DNA of 64,000 bases from Hymenobacter citatus. Its GTDB lineage: Bacteria > Bacteroidota > Bacteroidia > Cytophagales > Hymenobacteraceae. The stretch is from the NCBI RefSeq assembly GCF_014333615.1, contig NZ_JACSCY010000005.1:248001-312000 (forward strand), read 5' to 3'. Position numbers and translations under genes: made by a program. How positions within the stretch are numbered: the first letter of the stretch is position 1; each line of letters opens with the position of its first letter. Below the pieces are notes generated by a model, which saw only the letters and a program-made list of their open reading frames with translations, was not told the DNA's origin and searched no databases. Below are positions 15,614 to 42,785 of this stretch, in pieces.

Positions 15614-15622
15614 CGGTAGGGT

Positions 15623-15753: not shown

Positions 15754-15789
15754 CCCGGCAGACAAATACCTTCCCCACACATTTTCCTC

Positions 15790-17568: not shown

Positions 17569-17587
17569 ACAAACATAGATAACCGGC

Positions 17588-17687
17588 TGTCATCCTGAGC
17601 TTGCGAAGGACCTTATCACGGTAGCACGAGTCGTTGTGACGCCTGCTGTTCTACCGTGATAAGGTCCTTCGCAAGCTCAGGATGACA
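17588..17687. repeat. Paired inverted repeat, family E (GTCATCCTGAGC type), perfect 37-base arms
   Basis: The arms 17588-17624 and 17651-17687 are exact inverted copies with a 26-base spacer, between susD and the EEP gene. Sequences resembling GTCATCCTGAGC...GCGAAGGACC are, to my knowledge, widespread intergenic repeats in several phyla. A relative with the core GTCATGCTGAGC is at 36006-36117. Confidence 0.95.
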
Positions 17688-17728
17688 TACGATTTGCCTG
17701 CAAACCATTACAACCGCTTTCTTCCCCA

Positions 17729-19943: not shown

Positions 19944-20573
19944 ATGGGAGTTAAAGAGCGCAAACAACGGGAAAAGGAATATCGGGAGCAGTCGATTTTG
20001 GCCGCCGCCAAAACCGTTTTCCTGACCAAGGGACTGGTGGCTGCTACCATTGATGACATTGCGGCCGCCGCCGAACTGGGCAAGGGCACTCTATACCGGC
20101 ATTACCGCAGCAAGGAAGATATTATGCTGGCCCTGAGCGAGCAGGCTTTCCGGGAGCTGCACCAGCGCTATGTGGCGGCAGTGGCCAAAGGTGGCTCTGG
20201 CCTGGACAAATTGCTGCGCACTCGGCGGGCCTTTTTCCAATTTACCATGGAGAACCCGGCCTACTTCGGTTTTATTGCCTTCTTCGAGTCGCCGTTCTCC
20301 ACAAATGCTCCCGAGCAGCTTGCCGACATTGCTACCACCACGCACCAGCTGATGATGGAGCTACGCGACGAGGGCATAGCCGACGGCTCGATGCGCAAGG
20401 ATATCGATGCCAACTTGCTGGCTTACAGCATATGGGGTACTTCCTACGGGATGATGCAGTTCATCGTCAACAAGGGTAGCTACCTGATGGAGCCCCAGCA
20501 CACCGACCCTGCTGCGCAGTTTGAAGCATACATAATGCTGCTGGAAAGCGGCTTGCGGGCCCCAGCCGGCTAG
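19944..20573 (+). CDS. TetR/AcrR-family transcriptional regulator
   Basis: A 209-residue one-component repressor-type regulator. The N-terminal helix-turn-helix is textbook: ILAAAKTVFLTKGLVAATID followed by DIAAAAELGKGTLYRHYRSK (residues ~18-57). The C-terminal helical domain (about 80-205, with MENPAYFGFIAFFES) would bind an unknown ligand. The start at 19944 (ATGGGAG) gives a short basic lead (KERKQREKEYREQ) before the HTH. It lies in front of an RND efflux operon and both carry the GACTnnnAGTC-type motif, so it probably represses the pump and itself, as AcrR and MexL-like proteins do. Confidence 0.95.
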   Translation: MGVKERKQREKEYREQSILAAAKTVFLTKGLVAATIDDIAAAAELGKGTLYRHYRSKEDIMLALSEQAFRELHQRYVAAVAKGGSGLDKLLRTRRAFFQFTMENPAYFGFIAFFESPFSTNAPEQLADIATTTHQLMMELRDEGIADGSMRKDIDANLLAYSIWGTSYGMMQFIVNKGSYLMEPQHTDPAAQFEAYIMLLESGLRAPAG

Positions 20574-20602
20574 CGGGCCACAAGGCAGCACCTTTTTTTT
20601 AA

Positions 20603-20634
20603 CATTTTTGGACTAATAGTCATTTTATGAACAA
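20603..20634 (+). promoter_or_regulatory. Putative promoter/operator of the RND operon, upstream copy
   Basis: CATTTTTG (20603-20610, one mismatch to TAnnTTTG) is followed at once by GACTAATAGTC (20611-20621), a perfect 4-3-4 palindrome. Bases 20616-20634 are repeated exactly at 20695-20713, where the copy contains the real start codon of the adaptor gene. Here the repeat yields only a three-codon frame (Met-Asn-Lys-stop from 20627). Confidence 0.5.
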
Positions 20635-20681
20635 ATAGTTGGAGCAGTGGTAAAGCAACATGTCTTGGCTCATTTTTTTAC

Positions 20682-20713
20682 TCTAATTGAACCGATAGTC
20701 ATTTTATGAACAA
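20682..20713 (+). promoter_or_regulatory. Putative promoter/operator of the RND operon, start-proximal copy
   Basis: TCTAATTG (20682-20689) is followed by AACCGATAGTC (20690-20700), a degenerate operator keeping the AGTC half-site. The adaptor start codon (20706) lies inside the 19-base direct repeat 20695-20713. If this promoter is used the leader would be only about ten bases. Confidence 0.35.
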
Positions 20714-21800
20714 CGAAGCAAACTTACTCTCTGCTTACGCGCCACGCAGGCAGCCAGCCCTGCGCTGGCTGCCTTGGGTGTTGCTACCCGGCGTAGTGGC
20801 CTGCTCCAAGCCCGCTGAACAGGCCCGCACGGCCCAGCCTTCCTCCGTGCCTTCTGTGGCCGTGCAGGTGCAGGCAGTAGGCACTACATCTGGCAGCGCC
20901 GAACAAACCTATAGTGGCACCATTGAGGCCGAAAACACAGCCAGCCTGGGCTTTGGTGCGGCCGGCACGGTGCGCCAGGTACTGGTGCGCGAAGGCGAAC
21001 AGGTGCGGGCGGGCCAGCTACTGGCCACGCTGGAACGGGAGGAGTACGCCAGCCTGGTAGCCGGCGCCGAGGCCTCGCTGCGGGAAGCCCGCGACCACGC
21101 CCGCCGCTCGCAGCAGCTTTTCCAGGCAGAAAGCCTGACCGAGCGCGAGCTGGTGCAGGCCACCACGGCCTTGCAGCGCGCCCAAGCCAACGCCCAGGTG
21201 GCCCGCAAGCATCTGAAAGACACCTACCTGCGGGCACCTTTTGCGGGGCTGGTGGCAAGCCGGATGGTAGAGCCGGGCGTGACGGCCATGCCGGGTAGTC
21301 CGGCGTTCAGCCTCATCAAAACTCAGCAAGTGTTTGCGCGGGCCGTGGTGCCGGAAGCGGAGATTGGGCGCATGGCCAAGGGCACAACGGTGCGGGTGCA
21401 GGTGCCAGCGCTGAACCGCGACGTGACGGGCCAGGTGCAGGTCATCAGTCCCGTAGCCGACCCCACATCGCGCAGCTTCTATTTGAAAGTGCTGCTGCCC
21501 AACCCTGGGCTACGCTTGCTGCCGGGCATGCTGGCCAGCCTGCGCATTCCGCTGCCGCCAGGCTCCAGCAAGCCGCTGGTGGCAGTGGCGCCGCAGGTAG
21601 TGGTGCAGGAGACCGACGGTGCTAGCGTGGTGTATGTGCCTGATGCGGCCGGCCAAACGGCCCGGCGCCGCCGGGTGGTGCTGGGGCCGGTGCAGGGCCA
21701 GCAAGTGGTGGTAGCGCAGGGCCTGGCGGCTACCGACCGGGTCATTGTGGCCGGGCAGCAGCGCCTGCACGATGGGCAGGCCATTCACATTCTTCCGTAA
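20706..21800 (+). CDS. RND efflux periplasmic adaptor (membrane fusion protein)
   Basis: A 364-residue HlyD/AcrA-type adaptor, lipid-anchored through LLPGVVAC (Cys32). The order is a barrel-sandwich half-motif (GFGAAGTVRQVLVREGEQVR), a coiled-coil hairpin (about 105-160, REARDHARRSQQLFQAESLT), the second lipoyl half (YLRAPFAGLVASRMVEPGVT), then beta-barrel and membrane-proximal domains with VVLGPVQGQQVVVAQGL. It links the inner-membrane pump to the TolC-type channel. It is the first gene of an operon with the pump 13 bases downstream. The start codon sits inside a 19-base direct repeat (see 20682-20713). Substrates cannot be read from the sequence. Confidence 0.95.
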   Translation: MNNEANLLSAYAPRRQPALRWLPWVLLPGVVACSKPAEQARTAQPSSVPSVAVQVQAVGTTSGSAEQTYSGTIEAENTASLGFGAAGTVRQVLVREGEQVRAGQLLATLEREEYASLVAGAEASLREARDHARRSQQLFQAESLTERELVQATTALQRAQANAQVARKHLKDTYLRAPFAGLVASRMVEPGVTAMPGSPAFSLIKTQQVFARAVVPEAEIGRMAKGTTVRVQVPALNRDVTGQVQVISPVADPTSRSFYLKVLLPNPGLRLLPGMLASLRIPLPPGSSKPLVAVAPQVVVQETDGASVVYVPDAAGQTARRRRVVLGPVQGQQVVVAQGLAATDRVIVAGQQRLHDGQAIHILP

Positions 21801-21813
21801 CCCGCTTCGTTTT

Positions 21814-24800
21814 ATGAAAGAACAAGCTTCCAAACGCCGCCTCAACCTGATTGAGGCAGCCATGAAATACAAGCAGGTTACCTTTGGTATCACCCTGCTA
21901 CTGGCGCTGGCGGGCATCTGGGCCCTGTACAGCATGCCGCGCATGGAAGACCCGCGCATCACTATTCGGCAGGGCCTGGTGCTGGCGGTATACCCAGGGG
22001 CCGACGAGATGACGGTGGAAAACCAGCTGACCAAGAAGCTGGAACAGCAGCTCTTCAGCTACAAAGAGGTGCGGAAGGAGAAGACCTACTCCACCACCAA
22101 GGCCGGGGCCGTGGTAATCAACGTGACCTTGCAGGACTGGGTGACGGATACTGATAAGTTCTGGACCAAGCTTCAGGACGGGCTCAACGCCAACAAGCAA
22201 CTGATTCCGCCGGGCGTGCAGGGGCCGTACGTAAACGGCGAGTTTGGCGATGTGGCGGCTCTGATGCTGGCCGTCACGGCTCCAGACCGCAGCTACGCCG
22301 ACCTGAAGGAATACCTCGACCAGCTGGAAGACGCCCTCAAAACCCTACCCCAGGTGGCCAAAATCCGGCGCTACGGCGAGCAGCGCGAGCAGGTGTCCGT
22401 GACGACATCGGCCGACCGGCTGCGGCAGTACGGCCTCGACTTTGGCCAGATGGCGGCCGTGCTGCAAAGCCAGAACAACGTGCGCTACTCGGGCGAGCTA
22501 AAGCTGCCCGCGGCCCGCGTGCCGGTGTTCACCGAAGGGCTCTACCGCTCGCAGCAGGCGCTGGCCAACCAGCTGATTTACACGGACCCGGCCTCGGGCA
22601 ACCAGGTGCGGCTGCGCGACGTGGCCCAGTTGGAGCGTCGCAACGAGGAGCTGACTTCGCGCATCAGCATCGACGGCCAGCCAGCCGTGATGCTGACCGT
22701 GGAGATGCAGCCGGGCAACAATATCGTCTGGTTTGGCGACCAGCTTCAGGCCCGAATCAAGGAAGTGGAAGCCCGCTTCCCGAAGGGCGTGCGGGTGCAG
22801 GAAATTGTGAGCCAGCCCGCGGTGGTCGACCACAAGCTGCATGACTTTTTCGTGGAGCTGAGCATTGCCGTGGCCTCGGTTATTGCGGTGGTGATGCTGC
22901 TGCTGCCGCTGCGCATTGCCCTGATTTCGGCCATTGCCTGCCCGCTCTCCATCCTCATCACGTTTGCCGTGATGCACCTGCTGGGCATGGAAATTCACCA
23001 GGTGTCGCTGGCGGCGCTGGTGATTGTGCTGGGCATGGTGGTAGACGACGCCATTGTGGTGGTAGACAACTACGTGGAGAAGCTCGACGAGGGCCTGGAC
23101 CGCTGGCAGGCGGCCTGGCGCGCGGCCACCGATTTATTTGTGCCGGTGCTGGCGGCCACGGCCACCATCATCTTTGCCTTTCTACCCTCGGCCCTGGTGT
23201 ACACGGGCCTCACCAAGGAGTTTTCGATGCACATTCCGGCGACCGTGGCGGTGGCGCTGACGTCGTCGTTTCTGGTCTCGATGCTGCTCACGCCCTACCT
23301 CTGCTACTTCGCTATTCGGGAGGGGCTGCACGCGAAAAAGGCCGGTGCACCCGCCGGCAAGCCCTCGGTTATCGACCGGGTGCAGGCGTGGTTTAACCGG
23401 GCCGTGGACTGGAGTTTCGCGCGGCCCAAGCTGGTGCTCACGCTGGGCTTTTCGTTTATTCTGCTGGCCGGCGTTTTCGGCTCGCAGCTCAAGTTTGAGT
23501 ACCTACCCTACGCCGAGCGCGACCAGTTCAACCTGGAGCTGTGGCTGCCCGAGGGCACGCCCGTGGCCCAGACCGAGCGGGCCGTTGCCCGCCTGACGGC
23601 CGCCATCCGGGGCGATAAGCGCATCCGGCAGGTGGTCAGCTTTATCGGCACCGGCTCGCCGCGCTTTTACTCGAGCTACGCTCCCGAGGCCCCGGCCGAA
23701 AACTACGCCCAGGTGTTCATTAGCACCACCAGCGCCGAGGCCACCGTGGCCCTGGCCAAGGAGTACGCGCACTCCTTGCAGCCAGTGGTGCCCGAGGGCT
23801 CGGTACGGGTGCGCCGCCTGAGCTGGAAGGAAACCAAGGCCCCGATTGAGGTGCGCGTGGTGGGCGACAACGTGGCGGCCATCCGCCGGGTAGGCCAGCA
23901 GGTGGCGCAGCTTCTGGCTAGCACCGCCAACACCCACTTCGTGCGCGACGACTGGCGCAATCCCTACCTGGGCGTGGCTGTGCGCGTGAAAGAAGATCAG
24001 GCTAGCCGCCTGGGTGTGAGCAAGGAAGCTGTGGGCCAGACCCTGGGCGGCAGCCTCAAAGGGTGGCCCGTCTCCACGCTCTGGGAGGGCGACAAGCCCC
24101 TGGACATTGTGCTGCGCCTCGACGAAAAAGACCGCCAGCAGCTCAGCGACGTGAACCAAGTGTACGTGACGACGGCCTACCAGACCAAGGTGCCCCTGCG
24201 CCAGGTGGCCGACGTGGTGCCCGCCTGGCACCTGAGCAATATTGTGCGCCGCAACGGGCTGCGCACCCTCACCGTGAGCAGCGACACGGATTTTGGCCGG
24301 GTGGCCGGGCAGATTCTGGACGAGGTCCGGCCCCAGCTCGACGCGCTACCGCTACCAGCCGGCGTGCACCTGGAGTACGGCGGCGACGACGAATCGGGCC
24401 GCGACGCGGCCCCCAACGCCAACCTGGCCCTGGGCCTGAGCTTTCTGCTGATTTTCCTCACGCTGCTGATTCAGTTCCGCCACCTGGGTCGGGCGCTCAT
24501 CGTGTTATCTACGTTCTTTCTGAGCTTGCCCGGCGCCATGTTTGGCCTCTGGATAACGGATAACCCACTGGGCATGACCGCCTTTCTGGGCATCAATAGT
24601 TTGCTGGGCATCGTGGTGCGCAACGGCATCATCCTGGTCGATTACGCCGACGAGCTGGTGCGCGAGCACGGCTACAGCATCCGGGAGGCCGCCATTCACT
24701 CGGCGCAACGGCGCATGCGCCCCATCTTCCTCACCTCGTCGGCCGCCGCCGTGGGCGTGATTCCCATGATTCTGAGCAAATCCCCCCTGTGGGCGCCCCT

Positions 24801-24954
24801 GAGCAGCGTCATTGCCTTCGGCATTATGGTAGCCATGGGCATGACCCTGTTTGTGGTGCCCGTGCTCTACTACCAGTCGCTGAAACCCCGCCGGAACGCC
24901 GCCCCCACTACTCCCCACGACGGCAACCAGCCCGCGCTGGCGCTGGCCCACTAA
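21814..24954 (+). CDS. RND efflux transporter permease (AcrB/MexB superfamily)
   Basis: A 1046-residue inner-membrane pump. The ATG at 21814 (MKEQASKRRLNLIEAAMKYK) is chosen over an in-frame ATG at 21745 that overlaps the adaptor gene. Transmembrane helix 1 (FGITLLLALAGIWALY) is followed by the first porter loop with LAVYPGADEMTVENQLTKKL. TM4 carries GMVVDDAIVVVDN, the paired Asp residues that relay protons in RND pumps. A second large loop (about 520-835) and the last helices (GINSLLGIVVRNGIILVDYA, ILSKSPLWAPLSSVIAFG) complete the duplicated RND fold. It exports substrate by proton antiport with its adaptor and channel. The nearby TetR gene is the probable controller. Confidence 0.96.
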   Translation: MKEQASKRRLNLIEAAMKYKQVTFGITLLLALAGIWALYSMPRMEDPRITIRQGLVLAVYPGADEMTVENQLTKKLEQQLFSYKEVRKEKTYSTTKAGAVVINVTLQDWVTDTDKFWTKLQDGLNANKQLIPPGVQGPYVNGEFGDVAALMLAVTAPDRSYADLKEYLDQLEDALKTLPQVAKIRRYGEQREQVSVTTSADRLRQYGLDFGQMAAVLQSQNNVRYSGELKLPAARVPVFTEGLYRSQQALANQLIYTDPASGNQVRLRDVAQLERRNEELTSRISIDGQPAVMLTVEMQPGNNIVWFGDQLQARIKEVEARFPKGVRVQEIVSQPAVVDHKLHDFFVELSIAVASVIAVVMLLLPLRIALISAIACPLSILITFAVMHLLGMEIHQVSLAALVIVLGMVVDDAIVVVDNYVEKLDEGLDRWQAAWRAATDLFVPVLAATATIIFAFLPSALVYTGLTKEFSMHIPATVAVALTSSFLVSMLLTPYLCYFAIREGLHAKKAGAPAGKPSVIDRVQAWFNRAVDWSFARPKLVLTLGFSFILLAGVFGSQLKFEYLPYAERDQFNLELWLPEGTPVAQTERAVARLTAAIRGDKRIRQVVSFIGTGSPRFYSSYAPEAPAENYAQVFISTTSAEATVALAKEYAHSLQPVVPEGSVRVRRLSWKETKAPIEVRVVGDNVAAIRRVGQQVAQLLASTANTHFVRDDWRNPYLGVAVRVKEDQASRLGVSKEAVGQTLGGSLKGWPVSTLWEGDKPLDIVLRLDEKDRQQLSDVNQVYVTTAYQTKVPLRQVADVVPAWHLSNIVRRNGLRTLTVSSDTDFGRVAGQILDEVRPQLDALPLPAGVHLEYGGDDESGRDAAPNANLALGLSFLLIFLTLLIQFRHLGRALIVLSTFFLSLPGAMFGLWITDNPLGMTAFLGINSLLGIVVRNGIILVDYADELVREHGYSIREAAIHSAQRRMRPIFLTSSAAAVGVIPMILSKSPLWAPLSSVIAFGIMVAMGMTLFVVPVLYYQSLKPRRNAAPTTPHDGNQPALALAH

Positions 24955-24967
24955 CCTCGCTTTTCCT

Positions 24968-26275
24968 ATGAACATCCTATCCCTGTTAGCGGCAGCCCTG
25001 GTGCTGCTCACGCCGGGCCTGGCTGCCCAGTCGTTGCCCGCTGCCCCCGCACCTGCCGGTGCGGGCGCTTCCCTCCTTACCCTGGCCGAATGCCGGGCGC
25101 TGGCCCTGCGCCAAAACCAGCGCCTGACCGTGGCCGCCCGCCGGCAACAAGCCGCCGAAGCGGCCCAGGCGGCCGCTAAAACCGGCCGGCTGCCCAAGCT
25201 CGATGCCAGCAGCACCGGCTACTACGTACGCGGGTTGCGCGGCACGCCCCTCGAAGCGCAGGGCGTGGCAACCGGCGTGGGCATGAGCCAACCTATTTAT
25301 TCCGGTGGGCGCATCCGCTCCCAGATTGCCCTGGCCGGCTTGCAGGCCGAGGTCAGCGGCGAAGATGTGCGGGCCGCCCGCCAGCAGCTGGTAGCCGAAA
25401 CCGACCAAACGTACTGGCAGGCCATAGCCCTGCGCGAGCAGGTAGGACTGGCCGAACGCAACCGGCTCCAGCTGCAAGCCCTGGTGCGCGACCTGGACCA
25501 CAAGTACCAGGCCGGCTTGGTCTACAAGGCCGACCTGCTGCGGGCCCAGGTGCAGCTGCGCGACGCCGACGTGCAGCTACTACGCGCCCGCGACGAGCAG
25601 CAGCTAAGCCAGCAGGTGCTGCGGCAGCTCATCGGCTGGCCGGCCGGCGACTCCCTGCGCCTGGCCGACACTCTGGAAGGCGAGTTTTTGCCGGTGGCGG
25701 CGGCCGACTACCAGGCGCGGGCCCAGGTCCAACGCCCCGACCTGCGCCAACTTGCCCTGAATACCCGCGCCGACTCGCTGCTGATTGCTCTGGCGCGCAG
25801 CGCCCGGCGGCCGCAGGTGAATGCCAGCGCCAACGCCCTGCTGCTTGTGCAGCGGCCCAACGTCTTCTTACCCGACCGTACTCTTACGCCAGCCTACGCC
25901 TTGGTGAGTGTGAACCTGCCACTTGTACACTGGAAAGAGCACCGCTTGCTCGAAGCCCAGCGCCGCTATCAGGCCCAGGCCAACGCGGCCCAGCTGACGG
26001 AGGCCCGCCAGCAGGTGCAGCTCGAAATCAGCCGCGACTTGCTGCGCCTCAACCAGGCGGTCCGCCGCATCGAGCTGCAACGCCTCACGGTGGCCCAAGC
26101 CGCGGAAAACCTGCGCCTTAACGACAACCGCTTCCGGGCTGGCCTGCTCTCCCTTGTAGACCTGCTGCAAGCTCAAACAGTAAGCCAGCAAGCTGCCGCC
26201 GCCCTGGTCGAGGCCCAGGCCGAATACCGCATGGCTGAAGCGGCGCTGGCCCGCGCCACCGGCGAGCAGGACTGA
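24968..26275 (+). CDS. TolC-family outer membrane efflux channel
   Basis: A 435-residue outer membrane factor, 13 bases after the pump gene. The signal peptide ends near LAAQS (residue ~22). Two OEP repeats are visible, each with long amphipathic coils: LAECRALALRQNQRLTVAAR to ~215, and RADSLLIALARSARRPQVNA to the end, including FRAGLLSLVDLLQAQ, the typical second-repeat equatorial motif. It forms the trimeric outer-membrane duct of the tripartite pump. A stable hairpin directly after the stop closes the operon. Confidence 0.95.
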   Translation: MNILSLLAAALVLLTPGLAAQSLPAAPAPAGAGASLLTLAECRALALRQNQRLTVAARRQQAAEAAQAAAKTGRLPKLDASSTGYYVRGLRGTPLEAQGVATGVGMSQPIYSGGRIRSQIALAGLQAEVSGEDVRAARQQLVAETDQTYWQAIALREQVGLAERNRLQLQALVRDLDHKYQAGLVYKADLLRAQVQLRDADVQLLRARDEQQLSQQVLRQLIGWPAGDSLRLADTLEGEFLPVAAADYQARAQVQRPDLRQLALNTRADSLLIALARSARRPQVNASANALLLVQRPNVFLPDRTLTPAYALVSVNLPLVHWKEHRLLEAQRRYQAQANAAQLTEARQQVQLEISRDLLRLNQAVRRIELQRLTVAQAAENLRLNDNRFRAGLLSLVDLLQAQTVSQQAAAALVEAQAEYRMAEAALARATGEQD

Positions 26276-29614: not shown

Positions 29615-31765
29615 CTACCGCTGATAAACGCGCACATAATCTACCTCGTAGCGGCTGGGTAGGGCAGTGCCTTCCAGCGGGCCGCCGTTGTCGCCGCCCA
29701 GGGCTAGGTTGAGTAGGATGTAGTGCGGCTGCATCATGGGGTTGCGGCCGGTGCCGTCTTGGTTCACGGTGGCCGTGAGGGGCGTTTCGTTGAGCAGCAA
29801 GTCGTCTACGTAGAGGCGGATGGCGGTGGCATCCCAGTCCATGCGCCAGATGTGAAATTTCTGGGCCCAGTCGGGGTCGGCGAAGGAGCTGACCGACTTG
29901 GTTTCGCTGTGCCACTTGGCGGTGTAGCGCTTGTCGGTACCGGAGGCGACGTTGGCCATAATCTTCCCTTTGTAATACTCCATGATGTCGATTTCGCCGT
30001 TGGCGGGCCACTCGCCGGCCACGCCTAGCGTCCAGAACGCGGGCCACAGACCGGAGCGGGCATCAATACGGCCCCGCATCTCGAAGCGGCCGTACTGCCA
30101 CTGATGCCGGCCCTGGGTGTTTAGACTAGCCGAGGTGTAGTCGATGGTCGTGCGGCTGGTTTTCCAGTCGGTGCTACCAGGCTCGTAGGTAGGGTTGGGC
30201 CGATTCTCCTGGCGCGCTTCAATAACGAGCATCCCGTTTTCCACGCGGGCGTTGTCGGACTGATACCATTGCAGCTCGTGGTTGCGCACAAAGCCGTTTT
30301 CAAACTGCCAGTTCTGCGGATTAGGGCGGCCGGGTTGGTCGAACTCATCGGCCCACACCAGCCGCCAGCCGTCTTGCGTAGCTGCCGGGGTAGGCGCCGC
30401 GGTACCTAACGACCACGACGTGGTAGCTGGCTGCGCAGAAGTTTCTCCCGGCGCCCACTCCTGTATATAGACTGGCTGCGGGGGTAGGTTTTCCAGGGTT
30501 TCGCCGTCGCCCTGGCCGGTGCGCTGCACGAAGAGATGCAGCACGTGGCGGCGCTGCCACAGCTCGGTGTCGTAGCTGGGCTCCCAGTTGCCCACGCTGG
30601 TGGTGGTCAGGTCTGTCACGGCCCACTGATTTTGCGTGAGGTCGGGGCAGGCGGCCACGGAGGCGCGATCTTGGCGCTCCACGTCGCGGAACACAAGGTA
30701 GGCAGCCGTGCGGCCCTTGCGGGTTTCGACCAGCAGCTGCGGCCGCGAAATCGGAATCTTCTTGGTCCCTACCCCGCTCAGGCTGAAGGGCATAGTGCGC
30801 TGGCTGATCTGCTGGGTTTTCCAGGTGTTACCATTTATATAAATTAACTGATACTGCGGCACTTGCGTATCCTGTGGCCGCCAGTAGGTAGCTATATAGG
30901 GCGTGCCGGCCGCGTCGGTGGTGATGGTGGTTTGGTTGATCAGCTCGCTGTTTTGCGGGATGCGGGCCGCATACTCGGCCGTGGCCTGGGTGATGGGTAG
31001 GCGGTAGGCTTCGCCGGTGCTTTTTTGCCAGGTTTTGCCGCCGTCGAGTGAGCGGGCGTAGGCCATATCGTGGTTGCTGGCCACATTGGGGCTTTCCCGC
31101 CACACCCACGACAGATGGATGGTGCCTTTCGGGTCGATGCAGGCCTGCCAGTAGGCATTCCGCTGGCCTTCCCCATCAATCAACACATCATGCAGGCGGC
31201 GCCACTGCTGGGTTTTAGCGGCGTAGTAGTTCAGGGCCAGATTGCCGTTGCCGGAGCTGCCGTCGCGGTACAGAAACAGCAAGTCGCCGGAGGGGAAGTG
31301 GTGAAACTCGGGGTAGGTCACGTTCTTTTCCCGGTCGCCGGTCATGGGCAGCAACTCGCTCATCTCTAACGAGCCGGGGGCTTTGCTACGACAGTAGTGC
31401 AGGGGGTTACCGTGGTGGTCGAAGGAGCAATGCAGGTAGCCGCGCCCATCCACCATGATGCTGATAATATTATGGGCGTCCTGCACCTTGCCCTGGTACT
31501 GGGTGCGCTGCACCTGCCATGGACCGCGGGGTAGGCGGCGCTTGGCCAGCACCACGTAGCCCAGGGAGTCGTAGTAGGCGGTGTACTGTTCCTTGCCGTG
31601 CGTCACCACGGAGTTCTTGCGGAACACGGCCCCGTTCACGTTGTTTTTGGCCCAGCCCAGCCCTATGGGTGTTTGGGCGGGGGCTGGCGTAGCAAATAAA
31701 GCAGTGCCGCCCAGCAGCAAGCAAACAAAAACCCGAAGAATTAGCACTAGAGAGAATAATTTCAA
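29615..31765 (-). CDS. Two-domain enzyme: BNR_4 beta-propeller fused to GH16
   Basis: A 716-residue secreted protein (signal peptide to about APAQT, residue 32). Residues ~35-450 form a BNR_4 propeller with NSVVTHGKEQYTAYYD, AHNIISIMVDGRGYLHCSFD then HHGNPLHYCRS, and SWVWRESPNVASNHDMAYAR. BNR_4-type propellers include ulvan lyases (PL24/PL25) and relatives of the rhamnosidase/lyase families GH145 and PL27, as I recall. After a Pro/Thr/Ala linker, residues ~475-716 are a GH16 domain with EIDIME (Glu591 nucleophile, Asp593, Glu596 acid/base), probably an endo-beta-galactanase or endo-beta-glucanase. Its ATG overlaps the stop of the upstream gene by four bases (ATGA), so the two are likely coupled. 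It is the last gene of the PUL. Confidence 0.85.
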   Translation of the reverse strand: MKLFSLVLILRVFVCLLLGGTALFATPAPAQTPIGLGWAKNNVNGAVFRKNSVVTHGKEQYTAYYDSLGYVVLAKRRLPRGPWQVQRTQYQGKVQDAHNIISIMVDGRGYLHCSFDHHGNPLHYCRSKAPGSLEMSELLPMTGDREKNVTYPEFHHFPSGDLLFLYRDGSSGNGNLALNYYAAKTQQWRRLHDVLIDGEGQRNAYWQACIDPKGTIHLSWVWRESPNVASNHDMAYARSLDGGKTWQKSTGEAYRLPITQATAEYAARIPQNSELINQTTITTDAAGTPYIATYWRPQDTQVPQYQLIYINGNTWKTQQISQRTMPFSLSGVGTKKIPISRPQLLVETRKGRTAAYLVFRDVERQDRASVAACPDLTQNQWAVTDLTTTSVGNWEPSYDTELWQRRHVLHLFVQRTGQGDGETLENLPPQPVYIQEWAPGETSAQPATTSWSLGTAAPTPAATQDGWRLVWADEFDQPGRPNPQNWQFENGFVRNHELQWYQSDNARVENGMLVIEARQENRPNPTYEPGSTDWKTSRTTIDYTSASLNTQGRHQWQYGRFEMRGRIDARSGLWPAFWTLGVAGEWPANGEIDIMEYYKGKIMANVASGTDKRYTAKWHSETKSVSSFADPDWAQKFHIWRMDWDATAIRLYVDDLLLNETPLTATVNQDGTGRNPMMQPHYILLNLALGGDNGGPLEGTALPSRYEVDYVRVYQR

Positions 31766-32394
31766 TGAGATGCCACACCTCGAATCCTAATGGTACCGGG
31801 TGGCGCCGGCGGCAACATTTCAATCTCCATCACAGCCGTTTGAATTTCAACCGATGTAGTGGTATTGGATGAGGTGGCATGCGTTATTTTGATGCTACTG
31901 ATGGCAGTGTTAGCAATCTGTAAGTTGGTTTCCGCCACCGGCATCCCATTCACTGAATAACTAATTGGGCCTGACAATAGCAGCTGCTGGCCAATGTCAA
32001 TCAGCTTTAAAATTCTTATTTCGACTTGCTTACTCCTTTTCAGCGTAATGTTAATAATGCCATTAGCCGTCAGGCTACGCCATTGAGCAGGAGCATCTGA
32101 GCCCTTGTAAATAATCACATCCTCAATGTCATCAGGATTTACATCCATCAACTGCCAGTTTATTATTGACGTCGAATTCAAAATAACCAGTGGCTTCGCA
32201 ATTGGGTACTTCGGCCGTTTAGCCAGTGCTACTGGCTTTTGCGTTGCTGTATCTGAGGAAGCAGTCTGCTGAATTATTGGAGCGGCTGGCTGCATAGCCG
32301 GAACACGCGGCGCAGCAGGTGTTCGTTGTGCCCATCCTGGTTGACCAGTGAGCAGACACATAAGCAGCAGAAACGTGAGTGGCAGATAGTGCAT
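31762..32394 (-). CDS. Secreted plug-like protein of unknown function
   Basis: A 210-residue exported protein; the ATG at 32394 opens a signal peptide (PLTFLLLMCLLTGQPGWAQ), and longer in-frame starts lack one. Residues ~65-120 read like the plug domain of a SusC receptor without its barrel: PLVILNSTSIINWQLMDVNP, then DDIEDVIIYKGSDAPAQWRS and ANGIINITLKRS, corresponding to the DIESIEVLKG...ANGVILITTK strands of SusC plugs. The C-terminal half is beta-rich (SSIKITHATSSNTTTSVEIQ) and unassigned. It overlaps the BNR_4-GH16 start by four bases. Function unknown; it might be a periplasmic or surface partner. Confidence 0.6.
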   Translation of the reverse strand: MHYLPLTFLLLMCLLTGQPGWAQRTPAAPRVPAMQPAAPIIQQTASSDTATQKPVALAKRPKYPIAKPLVILNSTSIINWQLMDVNPDDIEDVIIYKGSDAPAQWRSLTANGIINITLKRSKQVEIRILKLIDIGQQLLLSGPISYSVNGMPVAETNLQIANTAISSIKITHATSSNTTTSVEIQTAVMEIEMLPPAPPGTIRIRGVASH

Positions 32395-32483
32395 AACATT
32401 GTTTTTTAGACGAATACAGTAGATTATTCGTCTAAGAAAAGCATTTCTACCGAACAACATACGGCCGTTCTTGCGGCAGCGCC

Positions 32484-32593
32484 CGAAGTAGAGACACAAC
32501 ATTTTGTGTCTGGTCGTTGCTGAGGTTATTTAATCCAACGATAGGGCTATCAATCGTTCAAAGACTAGACAAAAATATTGTGTCTCTACTTCG
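32484..32593. repeat. Paired inverted repeat, family C, copy 2 (AT-rich variant)
   Basis: CGAAGTAGAGACACAA at 32484 is answered by TTGTGTCTCTACTTCG ending at 32593; the homology continues inward (TGTCTGGTCGTTG against CAAAGACTAGACA) with mismatches. It keeps the GTAGAGAC ends of family C but has an AT-rich inner part. It fills most of the junction between GH2 and the plug-like gene, ending four bases before the GH2 stop. Confidence 0.8.
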
Positions 32594-32597
32594 TACG

Positions 32598-35747
<3,150 letters not shown>

Positions 35748-36123: not shown

Positions 36124-38088
36124 CTACCTTCGAGCGCCCCTACCCCGCACCCGGATAACGACCATCGAATAGGGTTGGGACGTGTAGGCAAACGACTTGC
36201 CCGCTTTGTAGCTCGACTTCTTAGGCAGCACCGTTTGCGGATTGGCAAAGGTGTTTTTCGCGTCTTTATCACCCGATAGCACGGTCAGCGTGGCGGCAGA
36301 GGTCAGCCCTTTGAAAGAGGCCAGGTTGATTGGGAACGTCTGGACCTGGGGGCTGGCGTTGACCAGCTTCAGAATTACGTCGCCGGTTTGGGCGTCGCGC
36401 ACGCAGGAGGCGGCCAGGGTGGTATCGGCGGCCGCGCCGGTAGGCAGCGTGACTACCCCCTGATGGTAGGTATTGCCCTGGTTGTGGCCATAGAGCTGCT
36501 GCACGTAGTAATTCACCGTGGGCACAATGGTGGTGTTGGTGAAGTAAATCATATCGGGGTTCCACTGCGTGTGGCCTTCCTTGGCCAGAAGCGGCGCGTA
36601 GGACGCCAGCTGCACCACGTCGCCGTTGCGCTCCAGGCTGGTCATGTAAGCGGCTTCGGCCAGGGCGTTGTAGAGGGTGTTGCCCCACGACGCATACTCC
36701 CCCAGATACACCTTCGATTTAGCCCGGTCGTAGCTGTCGTAGCGCTGGTTGTTGGCCCAAAACCACTTTGGTTTTTCGTAGTAATGCTCGTCTACGAGCG
36801 GCACGTCGAGCTGATTGGCCAGCGCCCAGCCCAGGTCGTAGTCTTCGCCTTTGGGGCCGGGCCCTACCGTGCCCACAATTTTCAGGTTGGGGTACTTGGC
36901 GTGCACCGCGTTGTAGAGCAGGGTGAAGCGACTGCGAAAATCGGGGGTAATCTTGTCTTCGTTGCCGATGCCCACATACTCCAGGTTGAAGGGGGCGGGG
37001 TGGCCGGCGGCGGCCCGTTTGGCACCCCAGGGCGAGGTAACGGGGCCGTTGGCCCACTCTATCAGGTCGAGCACGTCCTGCACGTAGGCATCCATCTCGC
37101 TGATCGGAATGGCCTGCTGCCCAACGCTCCCAATGCGCCACGAGCCGCCCGAGTTCTGGCAGCTTACGCCGGCCGCCACCACGGGTAGGGGCTTGGCCCC
37201 AATGTCTTCGCAAAACTGAAAGTACTCGAAGTAGCCCAGCCCCGCCGTTTGGTGGTAGTTCCAGATGTTGCGCTGGGCCACGCGCTGCTCTACTGGCCCG
37301 ATGGTTTTCTTCCAGTCATACAGGTTGTCCAGGCCGTCGCCGTGGGCCAGGCAGCCGCCCGGAAAGCGCACAAACTTGGGCTTGATGTCGGCAATGGCCT
37401 GGGCCAAATCGGGCCGCAGACCGTTGGGATGGCGGTGGAACGTGTTTTCGGGAAACAACGACACCATATCAAGGTCAATCACGCCCTTGCCGGTGACCAG
37501 TACCACCAGCGTGGCCTTGTCGTCGGTAGTGCTGGGCGCGAGGGTAGCGCTGTACTGCTGCCAGTCCGCCTTCTGCGCCGAGAGTGTGGTTTCGGCCAGC
37601 ACCTGGTCTTTGGCGCCCCGCAGCTGCACCAGCAGCGGCACGGCTGCCCCCGATTTCACCCGCCCCCACATCGAGAAGTTATACTTCTCCCCTGCCCGCA
37701 CCGGTATGCCGTCGAAGCCGGTGTTTTTCAGCCCCAGCCCTTTCTGAAACGGGTTTTCCACACGCAGCGTCGCGTAGTGCGGATTGTTGGCGTGTAGCGG
37801 AGCCGCGCTTTCCACCGATACGCTGCCCATGGCGTAGCCCTCGTGCAAATACTCCCAGGCCGTGAGTGAGTTCCAGCCCTCATGGTCGCTCGGGGCGTAC
37901 TCGAAGGAGCGGTTCTGCACCAGCTCGGCGTACAGCCCGCCATCGGCCGCGTAGTTGATGTCCTCGAAGAAGATACCGAACAAATCGGGGCTGATGGGCT
38001 TGCCAGCCGGCGCGGCCTGGCCCAGCGCGAGCAAGGGGGTAAGAACGGCCAAAATGGCCGCGCAAACGCAGCGTACGGGAGTGGTCAT
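36124..38088 (-). CDS. GH51 alpha-L-arabinofuranosidase
   Basis: A 654-residue exported enzyme (signal peptide to ALGQA, residue ~25). ISPDLFGIFFEDINYAADGG opens the GH51 catalytic region, followed by an inserted carbohydrate-binding-like sandwich (about 60-190). The barrel has FPGGCLAHGDGLDNLYDWKK, YVGIGNED with the acid/base Glu377 and KVYLGEYASWG with the nucleophile Glu464. A C-terminal beta domain completes the family layout. It removes terminal alpha-L-arabinofuranose from arabinan, arabinoxylan or arabinogalactan. Paired repeats flank it on both sides. Confidence 0.95.
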   Translation of the reverse strand: MTTPVRCVCAAILAVLTPLLALGQAAPAGKPISPDLFGIFFEDINYAADGGLYAELVQNRSFEYAPSDHEGWNSLTAWEYLHEGYAMGSVSVESAAPLHANNPHYATLRVENPFQKGLGLKNTGFDGIPVRAGEKYNFSMWGRVKSGAAVPLLVQLRGAKDQVLAETTLSAQKADWQQYSATLAPSTTDDKATLVVLVTGKGVIDLDMVSLFPENTFHRHPNGLRPDLAQAIADIKPKFVRFPGGCLAHGDGLDNLYDWKKTIGPVEQRVAQRNIWNYHQTAGLGYFEYFQFCEDIGAKPLPVVAAGVSCQNSGGSWRIGSVGQQAIPISEMDAYVQDVLDLIEWANGPVTSPWGAKRAAAGHPAPFNLEYVGIGNEDKITPDFRSRFTLLYNAVHAKYPNLKIVGTVGPGPKGEDYDLGWALANQLDVPLVDEHYYEKPKWFWANNQRYDSYDRAKSKVYLGEYASWGNTLYNALAEAAYMTSLERNGDVVQLASYAPLLAKEGHTQWNPDMIYFTNTTIVPTVNYYVQQLYGHNQGNTYHQGVVTLPTGAAADTTLAASCVRDAQTGDVILKLVNASPQVQTFPINLASFKGLTSAATLTVLSGDKDAKNTFANPQTVLPKKSSYKAGKSFAYTSQPYSMVVIRVRGRGARR

Positions 38089-38363: not shown

Positions 38364-40316
38364 CTACGGTTCCACCACAAAGCCCCCGCGCGCCGGCAGC
38401 GTCACGCTCAGGGTAGTGCCCGATACCGGCCGGGTACTGAAGCTGCGGTTGGTGGCGCCATCGGTGATGAGCGTGCCCTGAGACAGACCCAGCTTGCTCA
38501 GGTCGAGTTGCACGGTTTTGGGCGCGTCGGTGGCGTTGATGCCGGCCAAGTACCAGCGGCCATCGGGGGTCTGGCGGGCCAGCACCACGTGCTGGCCGGG
38601 GTAGCCCTCCACGAAGCGCACGTCGGCCCAGCGCGGGGGCATCTTTTTCAGGAAGCCTTGCACGTAGTCGGGCTGCGCGGCCATGCCCTCGGGCGTTTCG
38701 GCGTAGTGCTGAATACCCGACTGAAACAGCACCGACAGCGCCAGCTCGAAGGCATTGGAGGTGCGCCGCTCCTTGCCGCGGATTTCCGAAAAGGCCATGG
38801 GCGTGAAATCCATGGGACCCACCGCGTTGCGGGTGAAGGGTAGGATGGCGCAGTGGGTCGGCTCCTGGTCGGTGTTGCGCTGGTCGAAGGTCAGAAACTC
38901 AAAGCCCTTCACGGCCTCCATGGTCATCAGGTTGGGGTAGGTGCGGTTCCAGCCCCGCGGGATGGTAGTGCCGTGGAAGTTCACAAGCAGACCGGCTTTG
39001 TGGGCGTCTTCCAGGATGTCCTGGTAGTAGTTCATAAACGACTGCCCATCGCCCCCAAAAAAGTCGATTTTCACGCCGGCCACGCCCATTTGCTTGATGC
39101 GGGCAAACTCCTTGCGGCGGCTTTCGGGCTCAAACAATACGTTGGTGGGCGTCTGGGGGGCCTGGTTCCAGTGGCCGTTGGAGTTGTACCACACCAGCAG
39201 CCCCACGTTTTTGGAGCGCGCATACTGGGCCAGCTCCCGCATCTTGTCGTAGCCGATTTGCGTGTCCCACAAGGCATCTACCAGGCAGTAGCGCCAGCCC
39301 ATTTCGGCGGCGTAGTCGATGAAGCGGCGCTGCACGTCGTAGGTGGTTTTGCTGTCGCCCAGCAGCACCCACGACCACGACGACTTGCCGGGCGCGTCGG
39401 TGAGCACCGGCGTTTGGGCGGGCGCACTCACGTCCGTGGTCAGGGTCGATTCGACGATGGGCGCCAGCGAGTTGCCCACCACCACCACGCGCCAAGGCGT
39501 GCGCCAGGGTAGGCGGCCTTCGGGCAGCAGGGCCGCATCGGGGGTGGTTTTCTCGGGTGGCTGCGGGAAAGCAACGTGGTACTCCGCGTCGGGCGACTCG
39601 TGGGCGAGGTGGGCGCCGGCGTAGGTGCGGCCCATGCCGGCTTCCGTGAGCAGCACCCAGTGCCCGTTCGTCTCAAACAAGGCCGGAAACGACCACCCCT
39701 GCCCAATGGTAGAGGGCGTGCCGGCCGCTATGCCGCGCTGGTAATTTTCCTCGTATGAGGGCTGGGTGTTGGCAAAGCCCGTCTGGGCCTTGGCGTGCGG
39801 GTGCAGCCACCCTTTGGCGCTGGTCGGCAGGTGAAAGGTGGTGTTTTCGGCGGTGATGCGCTGCACCTCCTGGCTGGTGCCTTCCACCACATACTGAAAC
39901 GCTACACCATCATTCGACACCTGAAACACCACGCTCAGCTGCGGGGCGCCCGCCCGGCCCGCGAAGTGCACCACGCGCCGGTTGGCCCGGTAGCGGCAAT
40001 TAGCGCGCTTGTCGGTGGCCAGTTGGTAGTCGTCGGTCACGGCTTCTACCTTATCGGCTTTTTTCAGCTTCAGGCCCTGGCTCAGGTCAGCGCCGGCGAG
40101 CTGTAGGCCCAGGCGCGAGGGCCGCAGCACCTCGGCGCTGCGGTAGCGCACGGCGTAGGTAGGCTGGCCCTGGCTGGTCACGTCCACGGTTACTTGCACG
40201 GCGCCGTCGGGACTGGCTACGCGGATGGGTTTGGCGGCCTGGGCGGCAGTGGCTAGGCTGAGCAAACCGAGGAAAGGTAAGAAGTGCGTGAAGGCACGGA
40301 GGTAAGTAACGGACAT
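38364..40316 (-). CDS. GH97 glycoside hydrolase, retaining type (probable alpha-galactosidase)
   Basis: A 650-residue exported enzyme; the ATG at 40316 opens a signal peptide (to AAQAAK) and is preferred over an in-frame ATG at 40403 that lies within the GH105 end. The N-terminal beta-super-sandwich (about 25-280, [14 protein letters not shown]) is followed by the TIM barrel with WSWVLLGDSKTTYDVQRRFI, GVAGVKIDFFGGDGQ (Asp418) and MTMEAVKGFEF (Glu467), and a C-terminal sandwich ending TLPARGGFVVEP. The Asp in VKIDFF is the nucleophile of the retaining branch, whose characterised member is an alpha-galactosidase; inverting SusB-type members use Glu instead. This suggests removal of alpha-galactose or a related alpha-linked sugar. 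Confidence 0.92.
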   Translation of the reverse strand: MSVTYLRAFTHFLPFLGLLSLATAAQAAKPIRVASPDGAVQVTVDVTSQGQPTYAVRYRSAEVLRPSRLGLQLAGADLSQGLKLKKADKVEAVTDDYQLATDKRANCRYRANRRVVHFAGRAGAPQLSVVFQVSNDGVAFQYVVEGTSQEVQRITAENTTFHLPTSAKGWLHPHAKAQTGFANTQPSYEENYQRGIAAGTPSTIGQGWSFPALFETNGHWVLLTEAGMGRTYAGAHLAHESPDAEYHVAFPQPPEKTTPDAALLPEGRLPWRTPWRVVVVGNSLAPIVESTLTTDVSAPAQTPVLTDAPGKSSWSWVLLGDSKTTYDVQRRFIDYAAEMGWRYCLVDALWDTQIGYDKMRELAQYARSKNVGLLVWYNSNGHWNQAPQTPTNVLFEPESRRKEFARIKQMGVAGVKIDFFGGDGQSFMNYYQDILEDAHKAGLLVNFHGTTIPRGWNRTYPNLMTMEAVKGFEFLTFDQRNTDQEPTHCAILPFTRNAVGPMDFTPMAFSEIRGKERRTSNAFELALSVLFQSGIQHYAETPEGMAAQPDYVQGFLKKMPPRWADVRFVEGYPGQHVVLARQTPDGRWYLAGINATDAPKTVQLDLSKLGLSQGTLITDGATNRSFSTRPVSGTTLSVTLPARGGFVVEP

Positions 40317-40386
40317 TTGGTGGAACGTTAGGATAGTCTTTATAACTGGCAAGATAGAGTTGCTCTGGTGGGCGCCTCCCCTCAAA

Positions 40387-41544
40387 CTACCGTTTGCCGG
40401 CATACCGAACCATCTCGCTGGCCGCCAGCAGGAAAGCTCCTACCCCAAAGTTGGACGTAGAGTTCTTGTCTACCACCTGGCCGGGAATGGCTTTCTCGCC
40501 GATGGGTTGCACGTAGCCAATGGCACCGTCGGGTTGCAGGGCGGTGGTGGTGAGGTACTGCCAGCCGCGCATAACGGTAGGTAGGTATTCCTTGCGGTCC
40601 AGCACGCCGTGGTTAATGCCCCAGAGGTAGGCAAAGGTATTGAAGGCCGTGCCGCTGGTTTCGGGGCCGGGGGCGTGCGCGGGGTCCAGAAGGCTGCGCG
40701 TCCAGTAGCCTTCGGGCTGCTGGGCCTGTTTGAGGGCGGCGGCCAGGCCGCGGTATTTAGCCACGTACTCGTCGCGGTGCGGGTCGTTTTGGGGTAGGTC
40801 TTGCAGCACGCGGGCCAGGCCGGCAAACACCCAGCCGTCGCCGCGCGCCCAGAAGTCCTTTTTGCCGTTCGCCGATTTGTGCTGGGGGTACACGTACTTG
40901 GCGTCGCGGTAGTACAGGCCGGTTTCGGGGTCGTACATGATGCTGTTGGCGTAGCTGAAGTACTCGTGCAACTTGCTCAGGTACTGCGGTTTGTTGGTGA
41001 TGGTATAGAGCTTGGTCATCACGGGCATCACCATGTAGAGGCCATCGGCCCACCACCAGTAGTCGTTCTGAGGGGTGCTCATTTCGTACTCCATCACCTC
41101 TTTAGCCCGCGCAATACGCTGGGGTTTGGGCTGTAGCTTGTAGAGGTCGGCGTAGGTTTGAAAGCAGATCTGCCAGTCGCCAAACAGCACGTGGTCGGGC
41201 GTTTCGCCATACTTATATTTCCAGGTGGCGCGGTCGTCGGAGGTGGCGCCCTTCCAGTTGTTGTGCTCGGCCCACATTTCGGAATACTGGCGGTATTTGT
41301 CGTTGTTGGTGACGGCGTAGGCCGCCATGTTACCGGTGTGGTAGGCCGCCACGTCCCAAAACGCCCGTTCCTGCGGCGGGTGCGTGGCCTGCCAGTGGTC
41401 ATTCACCTTCGTGATGAGGGTCAGTATCTCCTGGGGCTTTTTCGGCTGCGTGTAGGAGGTGGCAGCCGTTTGGGAAGTAGTGCAGGCGGTAGGCAGTCCC
41501 AGCAGCAGGGTGGCGCCGAGCAGGTAGGCAGGGAGGCGGGTCAT
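40387..41544 (-). CDS. GH105/GH88-like unsaturated uronyl hydrolase, lipoprotein
   Basis: A 385-residue (alpha/alpha)6-barrel protein; the ATG at 41544 begins a lipoprotein signal with LLGLPTAC (Cys20), so earlier in-frame starts are rejected. The family pattern is visible: DVAAYHTGNMAAYAVTNNDK, NDYWWWADGLYMVMPVMTKL with the catalytic Asp, KDFWARGDGWVFAGLARVL, and the C-terminal NFGVGAFLLAASEMVRYAGK. GH105 enzymes hydrolyse unsaturated galacturonyl or glucuronyl residues left by polysaccharide lyases. In this PUL the only lyase candidate is the BNR_4 domain at the 3' end. GH97 follows 70 bases later. Confidence 0.88.
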   Translation of the reverse strand: MTRLPAYLLGATLLLGLPTACTTSQTAATSYTQPKKPQEILTLITKVNDHWQATHPPQERAFWDVAAYHTGNMAAYAVTNNDKYRQYSEMWAEHNNWKGATSDDRATWKYKYGETPDHVLFGDWQICFQTYADLYKLQPKPQRIARAKEVMEYEMSTPQNDYWWWADGLYMVMPVMTKLYTITNKPQYLSKLHEYFSYANSIMYDPETGLYYRDAKYVYPQHKSANGKKDFWARGDGWVFAGLARVLQDLPQNDPHRDEYVAKYRGLAAALKQAQQPEGYWTRSLLDPAHAPGPETSGTAFNTFAYLWGINHGVLDRKEYLPTVMRGWQYLTTTALQPDGAIGYVQPIGEKAIPGQVVDKNSTSNFGVGAFLLAASEMVRYAGKR

Positions 41545-41578
41545 GGAGTGAAAGAGGGAATTTGTAGAAAATAGTTGC

Positions 41579-41619
41579 CGCCTGCCGGCCCGACGCCGTA
41601 GGCGTCGGGCCGGCAGGCG
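41579..41619. repeat. Single hairpin related to repeat family D
   Basis: CGCCTGCCGGCCCGACGCC and its exact reverse complement are separated by the three bases GTA, giving a 19-base-pair stem. The ends and the GACGCC core match the arms of the 15623-15753 element, so this looks like a single-arm version. It fills the GH43-GH105 junction. Confidence 0.9.
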
Positions 41620-41623
41620 ACCT

Positions 41624-42634
41624 TTACGGCTGGTAGGGCTTGCCCAGCACCAGCTTGTTGCCCGATACATCCACCGAAAACAGGTGCGGCACGCGGTGGT
41701 AGCGGCCGTTGATATCCTGGTGGCTGTGCGCGGCCATCAGCAGCTTGCCATCCAGCGTGCGAAACAGCATGCCGTGGCCGTAGTTGGGCGGGGTAATGGG
41801 GTCTTTTTCCTGCACCCAGGGGCCATCGAGGGTGCCGCTGGTGGAGTAGGCCACGCCCTGCGTGTACACGTCGTAGATCCAGCTGGTCCAGATCATGCCC
41901 AGGCGGCCGGTGCCGGTGCGAAACAGGTAGGGGCCATCGGTTACTTTGTTGGGGCGCGCCGGGCCGGAGCGCGGATTCTCGCGGCTCCAGGGCGAGTCGC
42001 TGGCCCGAAACAGCACCTTGCTCTCCCCTACCGTACCGCTCAGGTCGGGCTTCAGCAGTATCTTTTCAATGGTGCCATTCTGGTTTTGCAGCCATTCGTG
42101 GCAGTACACCATGTAGGGCTTTTTGTCCTTGTCTACCCACAGCGTGGCGTCGAGGGTAGGCTTGTTGGCGGGCAGGTAGGTGGCGTCGCCGCCGGACACG
42201 GGCACGTAGGGGCCATCGGGCCGGTTGCTGACCAGCACATGGCAGGCCCGGCGCTCAATGGGCGTGCCCTGCACCGTGTCAATCGTCACGGCCCGGTTGG
42301 TGAAGGTGGCGAAGTAGTAATATTTGCCCTGGTAGGGCTGAATCTCCGCAGCCCAGATCATCGGGTTCGGCCCCATCCAGGAGGCAGGGTCGGGCCGGGC
42401 CACCGGGTAGGGCCCCGACCACCGCTTCATATCGGGGCTTTTCCAGAGCAGGCCGCCGGTGCCGGTCATGTAGTACTGCTTGGTTTTCGCATCGGCCAGG
42501 ATGAATGGGTCACTCAGCCGGATGGAATCCAACGGCACGTTCTGCCGGATAACTGGCTTTTTGACTTGCTGCGCCTGCGCGGCGAATGGCAGTAGTAGCA
42601 AGCTGCTTATTATCAGGCGTATAGTAGCTTTCAT
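41624..42634 (-). CDS. GH43 glycoside hydrolase
   Basis: A 336-residue exported five-bladed propeller enzyme. The ATG at 42634 starts a signal peptide (to AAQAQ); longer in-frame starts run into the paired repeat. GH43 motifs are RLSDPFILAD (base Asp), PTLDATLWVDKDKKPYMVYC (Asp pKa modulator) and the following HEW (acid Glu). The end LFSVDVSGNKLVLGKPYQP closes the domain. Likely activity is exo-acting on arabinofuranose, xylose or galactose; I cannot place the subfamily. It sits between two repeats, alone in its module. Confidence 0.9.
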   Translation of the reverse strand: MKATIRLIISSLLLLPFAAQAQQVKKPVIRQNVPLDSIRLSDPFILADAKTKQYYMTGTGGLLWKSPDMKRWSGPYPVARPDPASWMGPNPMIWAAEIQPYQGKYYYFATFTNRAVTIDTVQGTPIERRACHVLVSNRPDGPYVPVSGGDATYLPANKPTLDATLWVDKDKKPYMVYCHEWLQNQNGTIEKILLKPDLSGTVGESKVLFRASDSPWSRENPRSGPARPNKVTDGPYLFRTGTGRLGMIWTSWIYDVYTQGVAYSTSGTLDGPWVQEKDPITPPNYGHGMLFRTLDGKLLMAAHSHQDINGRYHRVPHLFSVDVSGNKLVLGKPYQP

Positions 42635-42680
42635 TATCGTTTCTCTTGGTATAGGTGTTGCTACCATCGGTGGGCCGTGC

Positions 42681-42785
42681 ACCCCACCCCCGGCCCCTCC
42701 CCTCCGGGAGAGGGGTGCCACACGACACCAAAACGGCTCGTCAGAACGCACCCCTCTCCCGGAGGGGAGGGGCCGGGGGTGGGGT
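42681..42785. repeat. Paired inverted repeat, family F, perfect 38-base arms
   Basis: Arms 42681-42718 and 42748-42785 are exact inverted copies around a 29-base spacer. The arm core CGGCCCCTCCCCTCCGGGAG resembles GC-rich intergenic repeats known from many genomes. The right arm touches the stop codon of the GH43-GH43 gene. Confidence 0.95.

Follow-up and report, generated by a model that had tools for sequence, protein, structure and literature searches.

The SusCD locus of Hymenobacter citatus described here is closed by a gene in which a GH145-type (now PL42) β-propeller is fused in frame to a GH16 domain. The gene product is probably a secreted, two-domain enzyme acting on arabinogalactan proteins (AGPs) and carrying three active sites. 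The lyase and hydrolase steps assigned to it, and the GH105 plus DUF2264 routes that would follow, are ones that we infer from homology and gene context, the specificity of the GH16 domain being the weakest step. Both enzyme families are already known; what is new is the repeatedly evolved PL42–GH16 fusion and the posterior histidine kept outside the human gut. In the accessible literature, no paper was found that connects Hymenobacter with the GH145/PL42 enzyme family.

Domain architecture of the fusion protein

The window analyzed, i.e., the whole stretch of 64,000 nt, spans positions 248,001–312,000 of the forward strand of contig NZ_JACSCY010000005.1 (H. citatus, GCF_014333615.1). The fusion gene has a TTG start that shares bases with the TGA stop of the gene preceding it, and it encodes the following elements:

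29615–31765, minus strand: fused PL42(GH145)–GH16 gene, single open frame, 716 aa
31676–31765, minus strand: putative N-terminal signal peptide, approximately residues 1–30, without a lipobox Cys (from sequence)
30446–31675, minus strand: seven-bladed GH145/PL42 β-propeller, residues 31–440 (NF052497; 5MUK; VIA Z 53.8 to 5MUL)
30374–30445, minus strand: flexible A/P/T-rich linker, residues 441–464 (pLDDT below 50)
29618–30373, minus strand: GH16 domain, residues 465–716 (PF00722; model; Foldseek 6T2N)
29978–29995, minus strand: GH16 catalytic motif EIDIME, residues 591–596, within NGEIDIME (ExDxxE in sequence)

Pfam assigned residues 60–322 to BNR_4 (PF15892, 316 bits) and residues 508–693 to Glyco_hydro_16 (PF00722, 49.9 bits against a cut-off of 22), which makes the C-terminal part a GH16 member. 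The AlphaFold model consists of two folded domains with the disordered segment 441–464 between them, and the signal-peptide region forms a helix (residues 3–18) followed by disorder. Since the pTM of the whole-protein model is only 0.59, the mutual placement of propeller and GH16 is undefined. About 20 other Hymenobacter species share this architecture (71–91% identity), which rules out an assembly artefact.

Assignment of the propeller to GH145/PL42

NCBIfam model NF052497 (BT3686 α-L-rhamnosidase) matched the propeller at 654 bits over model positions 18–423 of 424. This lies below the curated equivalog cut-off of 700 bits, which is reached by none of the Hymenobacter members (40 of 120 genomes carry the propeller); we thus treat the propeller as a member of the family and do not call it a BT3686 equivalog. 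Among PDB sequences, it matched 5MUK (BT3686) with an E-value of 6.5e-164 and 58% identity over 399 aligned residues, followed in order by 4IRT, 5MUM, 5MVH, and FoRham1 (~1e-33); PL24 ulvan lyases matched only at 1.6e-5 to 4e-3. Fold comparison gave Z scores of 53.7–59.9 to GH145 entries, 44 to FoRham1, 34.6 to PL25, and 29.7 to PL24. By sequence and fold alike, the propeller clearly belongs to GH145, a family renamed PL42 after FoRham1 proved to be a lyase (PMC8377490; PMC10951650).

An earlier note on this DNA had related the BNR_4-type propeller to cap-cleaving enzymes of GH145 and PL27. Comparison with PL24, PL25, and GH145 by sequence and fold places it nearest to GH145/PL42, so the first of these affiliations is borne out. 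The second is not: the PL27 fold is a β-sandwich plus an (α/α)6 barrel rather than a BNR propeller (PMC8377490), and the window protein models as propeller plus GH16. PL24 and PL25 were likewise ruled out as the nearest family, given their weak sequence matches and Z scores far below those of GH145. The ulvan lyases LOR_107 and PLSV_3936 of these families share with the window protein the propeller fold and the His-His-Asp logic of the lyase site but are only 15–19% identical (Z 28–35) and are endo-acting on ulvan.

Two characterized relatives are the most informative. BT3686 of Bacteroides thetaiotaomicron (BtGH145/PL42; PDB 5MUK/5MUL) has the same fold and shares both residue sets discussed below; it differs in being a single-domain protein of a human gut species with Trp218 where the window protein has Pro226. 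FoRham1, the L-rhamnose-α-1,4-D-glucuronate lyase that founded PL42 as a lyase family (PDB 7ESK), shares the anterior catalytic set and the RE[ST]PN loop; in contrast to the window protein, it is a fungal, single-domain enzyme (33% identity over the aligned part) and has Tyr34 in place of the posterior histidine.

The putative anterior lyase site

The FoRham1 lyase set consists of Asp83, His85, His105, Tyr150, Arg166, Tyr202, and Arg220 (PMC8377490; PMC10951650), and alignment gave D96, H98, H118, Y151, R167, Y205, and R223 as the window equivalents. The following positions were mapped from the alignment:

31472–31474, minus strand: His98, putative anterior lyase base/acid (FoRham1 His85, BT3686 His90)
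31412–31414, minus strand: His118, within HCSFDHH, second anterior histidine (FoRham1 His105, BT3686 His110)
31313–31315, minus strand: Tyr151 (FoRham1 Tyr150, BT3686 Tyr143)
31265–31267, minus strand: Arg167, putative charge neutralizer (FoRham1 Arg166)
30743–30745, minus strand: Arg341, anterior site (BT3686 Arg333)

Together with the additional anterior positions S171, N277, Q278, and E395, these residues are near-invariant across 86 propeller sequences. Everything expected of a PL42 lyase in sequence, i.e., the anterior Asp-His-His, the Tyr, the Arg neutralizer, and the further Arg, is in place; the sole missing residue is FoRham1 Tyr26, whose place is taken by F48, a Phe common to all bacterial members examined. 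Activity is lost in the BT3686 mutants H90A, Y143F, and R333A (PMC8406133) and in FoRham1 mutants of H85, H105, and R166 (PMC8377490). The earlier note would have given up catalysis by the propeller had its catalytic residues been absent from the alignments; both the anterior set and the posterior histidine are present. Of the candidate positions it proposed, His56 proved equivalent to BT3686 His48 and the HCSFDHH stretch contains the anterior His118, but it had overlooked His98, the main lyase base.

Propeller lectins of the PLL family have the same fold (Z ~26 to the window propeller), and the domain might accordingly serve as a non-catalytic binding module that steers GH16 to capped side chains. 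With a full lyase residue set that is near-invariant and proven enzymes as the nearest relatives, we consider such a role highly improbable.

Residue 226 (31088–31090), next to the GlcA subsite on the lyase face, is Pro in the window protein, in most environmental members, and in FoRham1, and Trp in gut Bacteroides. The anterior site of BT3686 (His90, Tyr143, Arg333) acts on wine AGP and leaves plain gum arabic uncut (PMC8406133). FoRham1, by contrast, does attack gum arabic, which leads us to hypothesize that Pro226 may widen the substrate range of the anterior site.

The putative posterior hydrolase histidine

In BT3686, a hydrolase site and a lyase site coexist within one domain, and gum arabic is hydrolyzed only via the posterior site, which depends on His48 (PMC8406133). 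Hydrolase and lyase are therefore not mutually exclusive assignments for a propeller of this family. The window protein carries a histidine at the position expected for a GH145 hydrolase:

31598–31600, minus strand: His56, within VVTHG, putative posterior hydrolase residue (BT3686 His48; alignment)

The Gln of BACCELL_00856, which is inactive as a hydrolase, aligns with His56. A natural Gln at this position entails no hydrolase activity on gum arabic (PMC8406133; PMC8377490), and the introduction of His into Gln or Asp relatives restores it (PMC8377490).

The posterior histidine has been described as rare outside the human gut and ascribed to recent dietary selection (PMC8406133). It was found in 19 of the 40 propeller-bearing Hymenobacter genomes and in 5 of the 19 propeller genomes from elsewhere in Bacteroidota; among the loci retrieved, those of Pedobacter, Dysgonomonas, Tannerella, and other Bacteroidales MAGs have it as well. 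Its presence in nearly half of the Hymenobacter propeller genomes argues that it is not a speciality of the human gut. As habitats were judged by genus and record titles only and the genome sample was non-random, the published generalization is weakened rather than overturned.

Across 87 sequences, position 56 is occupied by H, Q, F, Y, L, R, D, S, M, A, or N, and the propeller tree requires at least ten switches between His and other residues. This variability, set against the near-invariant anterior residues, would fit a propeller that acts as a lyase only, with His56 drifting and the posterior pocket idle, as would the sister propellers that are 85–93% identical and differ in carrying His or another residue. 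Yet 11 of the 22 genomes with the fusion keep the histidine, among them the window and every one of its nearest relatives, and the published restoration of activity by His also speaks against an idle pocket. We regard the lyase-only reading as possible but doubtful. Alignment columns that vary with His56 are confounded by descent and were not used.

The arabinogalactan locus

Every gene of the locus, which runs from SusC (60506) to the fusion (29615), lies on the minus strand:

31762–32502, minus strand: putative small conserved gene before the fusion (no Pfam match)
32598–35744, minus strand: GH2 β-galactosidase, LacZ type (profile match)
36124–38088, minus strand: α-L-arabinofuranosidase, GH51 type (profile match)
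38364–40403, minus strand: GH97 (profile match)
40387–41670, minus strand: GH105/GH88-type unsaturated uronyl hydrolase (PF07470; 5NOA, E 2.9e-176, 67% identity; 4CE7, E 7.3e-55)
41624–42751, minus strand: GH43 (profile match)
42785–44983, minus strand: two-part GH43 protein (profile match)
45122–47662, minus strand: GH95 (profile match)
47768–50284, minus strand: GH31 (profile match)
50494–52599, minus strand: DUF2264, glucuronate dehydratase family, former GH154 (PF10022; 9O4U, E 4.1e-22)
52603–54516, minus strand: GH35 β-galactosidase (profile match)
54520–55599, minus strand: GH43_24-type exo-β-1,3-galactanase (6EUG, E 6.2e-111; 7BYS, 3VSF, 5FLW)
55613–57199, minus strand: SusD (profile match)
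57300–60506, minus strand: SusC TonB-dependent transporter (profile match)

Judged by this gene content, the assignment of the SusCD locus closed by the fusion to AGPs is convincing. The gene at 40387–41670 belongs to GH105 by its similarity to characterized members, and GH105 genes of the same clade adjoin the propeller in many Bacteroidales. In many other Hymenobacter, the fusion is directly preceded by a 31–40% identical copy of the small gene, part of which (DDIEDVIIYKG...NGIINITLKR) is similar to the plug motif of TonB receptors. Elsewhere in the window, the plus strand carries another SusC/SusD pair with an endonuclease/exonuclease/phosphatase-family gene behind it (12380–18583) and, as read from the sequence, an RND-type efflux operon of periplasmic adaptor, transporter, and outer-membrane factor that is preceded by a TetR-type regulator (19944–26275).

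The GH105 gene had been taken to imply a lyase, on the argument that no other gene here could make unsaturated uronic acids. This argument fails, as DUF2264 at 50494–52599 belongs to the glucuronate dehydratase family: former GH154 proteins, including BT3677, convert terminal GlcA into the unsaturated sugar needed by GH88/GH105 (PMC12269599). GH105 alone is thus no proof of a lyase, since DUF2264 can supply its substrate, and we rejected it as such. The characterized dehydratases BcGDH and BT3677, to which the DUF2264 protein of the window locus is homologous, make the kind of unsaturated GlcA end required by GH105 but are unrelated to the propeller and release no rhamnose.

DUF2264, encoded in the window locus and in 29 of the 40 propeller-bearing Hymenobacter genomes, makes it conceivable that the propeller is mainly a posterior hydrolase, with GH105 fed by the dehydratase acting on exposed GlcA and the anterior site reserved for special, e.g., sulfated, substrates. 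The use of the posterior site alone by BT3686 on gum arabic and the formation of unsaturated uronate from saturated GlcA by DUF2264 relatives are in line with this. Against it, His56 and DUF2264 are not associated across the propeller genomes (Fisher p 0.73; independent pairs likewise), so the idea that genomes with the hydrolase-type histidine need DUF2264 was rejected, and Pro226 resembles the gum-arabic lyase FoRham1 rather than BT3686 with its Trp. We consider a mainly hydrolytic propeller unlikely, without dismissing it. In Hymenobacter, GH105 did appear to accompany His56 (14 of 19 genomes with the histidine versus 5 of 21 without it; Fisher p 0.004), but this association did not hold when independent pairs were compared along the tree (median p 0.5).

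Specificity of the GH16 domain

The intact EIDIME motif claimed earlier is present, and PF00722 scores over its cut-off. Modeled alone, the domain reached a pLDDT of 93, and Foldseek retrieved 6T2N (E 1.4e-26). In sequence, it matched the same mucin O-glycanase (6T2N, E 1.4e-39) and then laminarinases; these nearest solved structures share 32–41% identity with it. In a GH16 tree of 81 rows, whose long branches call for care, the window domain falls in a branch of 72 rows (SH-aLRT 98) that excludes the laminarinases 4CRQ (Zobellia) and 3ILN (Rhodothermus) as well as further GH16 domains of Hymenobacter. Bacteroidales members of this branch are fused to GH43_24 (L035, L037, L040, L042) or to GH105–GH43_24 (L034). 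The GH43 part of L035, from B. faecis, matches exo-β-1,3-galactanase structures (PDB 6EUG for GH43). In these Bacteroides proteins, the same GH16 clade is thus joined to an arabinogalactan enzyme, with an exo-β-1,3-galactanase as the partner versus a cap remover in the window.

Our best guess is that the domain is a backbone β-1,3-galactanase, which is plausible from its clade and gene context. The alternative, that it is a laminarinase-like β-1,3-glucanase or another glycanase and the fusion tethers unrelated activities, draws on the closest solved folds being a mucin O-glycanase and laminarinases and on the many stand-alone clade members that lie in mixed loci without arabinogalactan genes close by. 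It sits poorly with the separate branch, with the repeated fusion of the clade to the arabinogalactan modules PL42, GH43_24, and GH105, and with a locus rich in β-galactosidases that also encodes GH43_24. We hold the alternative to be rather unlikely.

Distribution and origin of the fusion

Of the 40 propeller-bearing Hymenobacter genomes, 22 carry the PL42–GH16 fusion in frame; the remaining 18 lack an intact version, so the fusion is dispensable. The fused Hymenobacter GH16 domains form one branch, and the linker varies from 18 to 51 aa. L129, L138, and L027 carry broken or shortened versions: the frame is interrupted within or ahead of the GH16 part, or the protein has a linker tail but no GH16. 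Because the linker tail or a remnant of GH16 persists in these unfused cases, the lack of a fusion is in part a secondary loss.

In a phylum-wide sample of 395 genomes, the propeller was detected in 21, and in none of the 19 propeller genomes outside Hymenobacter was it joined to GH16; a second sample centered on another genome returned the same genomes and added nothing. A Dysgonomonadaceae MAG (L018) carries PL42 and GH16 joined without a linker, its GH16 grouping with those of Bacteroidales, which indicates that the fusion arose at least twice.

Other fusions were also observed. A Dysgonomonadaceae MAG (L046, 937–5211) encodes a 1425-aa GH105–PL42–GH127 protein, i.e., cap lyase, unsaturated uronyl hydrolase, and GH127 on one chain. 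L153 (7123–10302) encodes a GH2–PL42 fusion of 1060 aa, and the GH105–GH43_24–GH16 protein of L034 (3–2987) is 995 aa or longer, with PL42 encoded about 3 kb beyond it.

Proposed mechanism and significance

Two converging routes can be proposed for the locus. At the anterior site, β-elimination would take the terminal rhamnose off Rha-α-1,4-GlcA caps and leave 4,5-unsaturated GlcA, which GH105 would then take away. At the posterior site, hydrolysis of the same rhamnose would leave saturated GlcA, which the DUF2264 dehydratase would turn into the GH105 substrate. Extending this, we tentatively suggest, aware that the full combination is possible rather than probable, that one polypeptide holds three working sites on one substrate, namely the lyase and hydrolase faces and a tethered endo-galactanase; that the posterior hydrolase is an old or recurrent trait of environmental Bacteroidota rather than one recently acquired in response to the human diet; and that the anterior site with Pro226 also attacks plain gum-arabic caps, unlike the Trp218 version of gut Bacteroides.

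Arabinogalactan proteins are ubiquitous in plants, and their caps obstruct exo-enzymes. A naturally occurring protein that joins cap removal to backbone cleavage would offer a ready tool for AGP analysis and reveal which steps evolution has coupled, and the locus shows two possible routes to one GH105 substrate. Finally, with the posterior histidine flipping repeatedly within Hymenobacter, the question of dietary selection in the gut becomes testable with natural orthologue pairs that are more than 85% identical.
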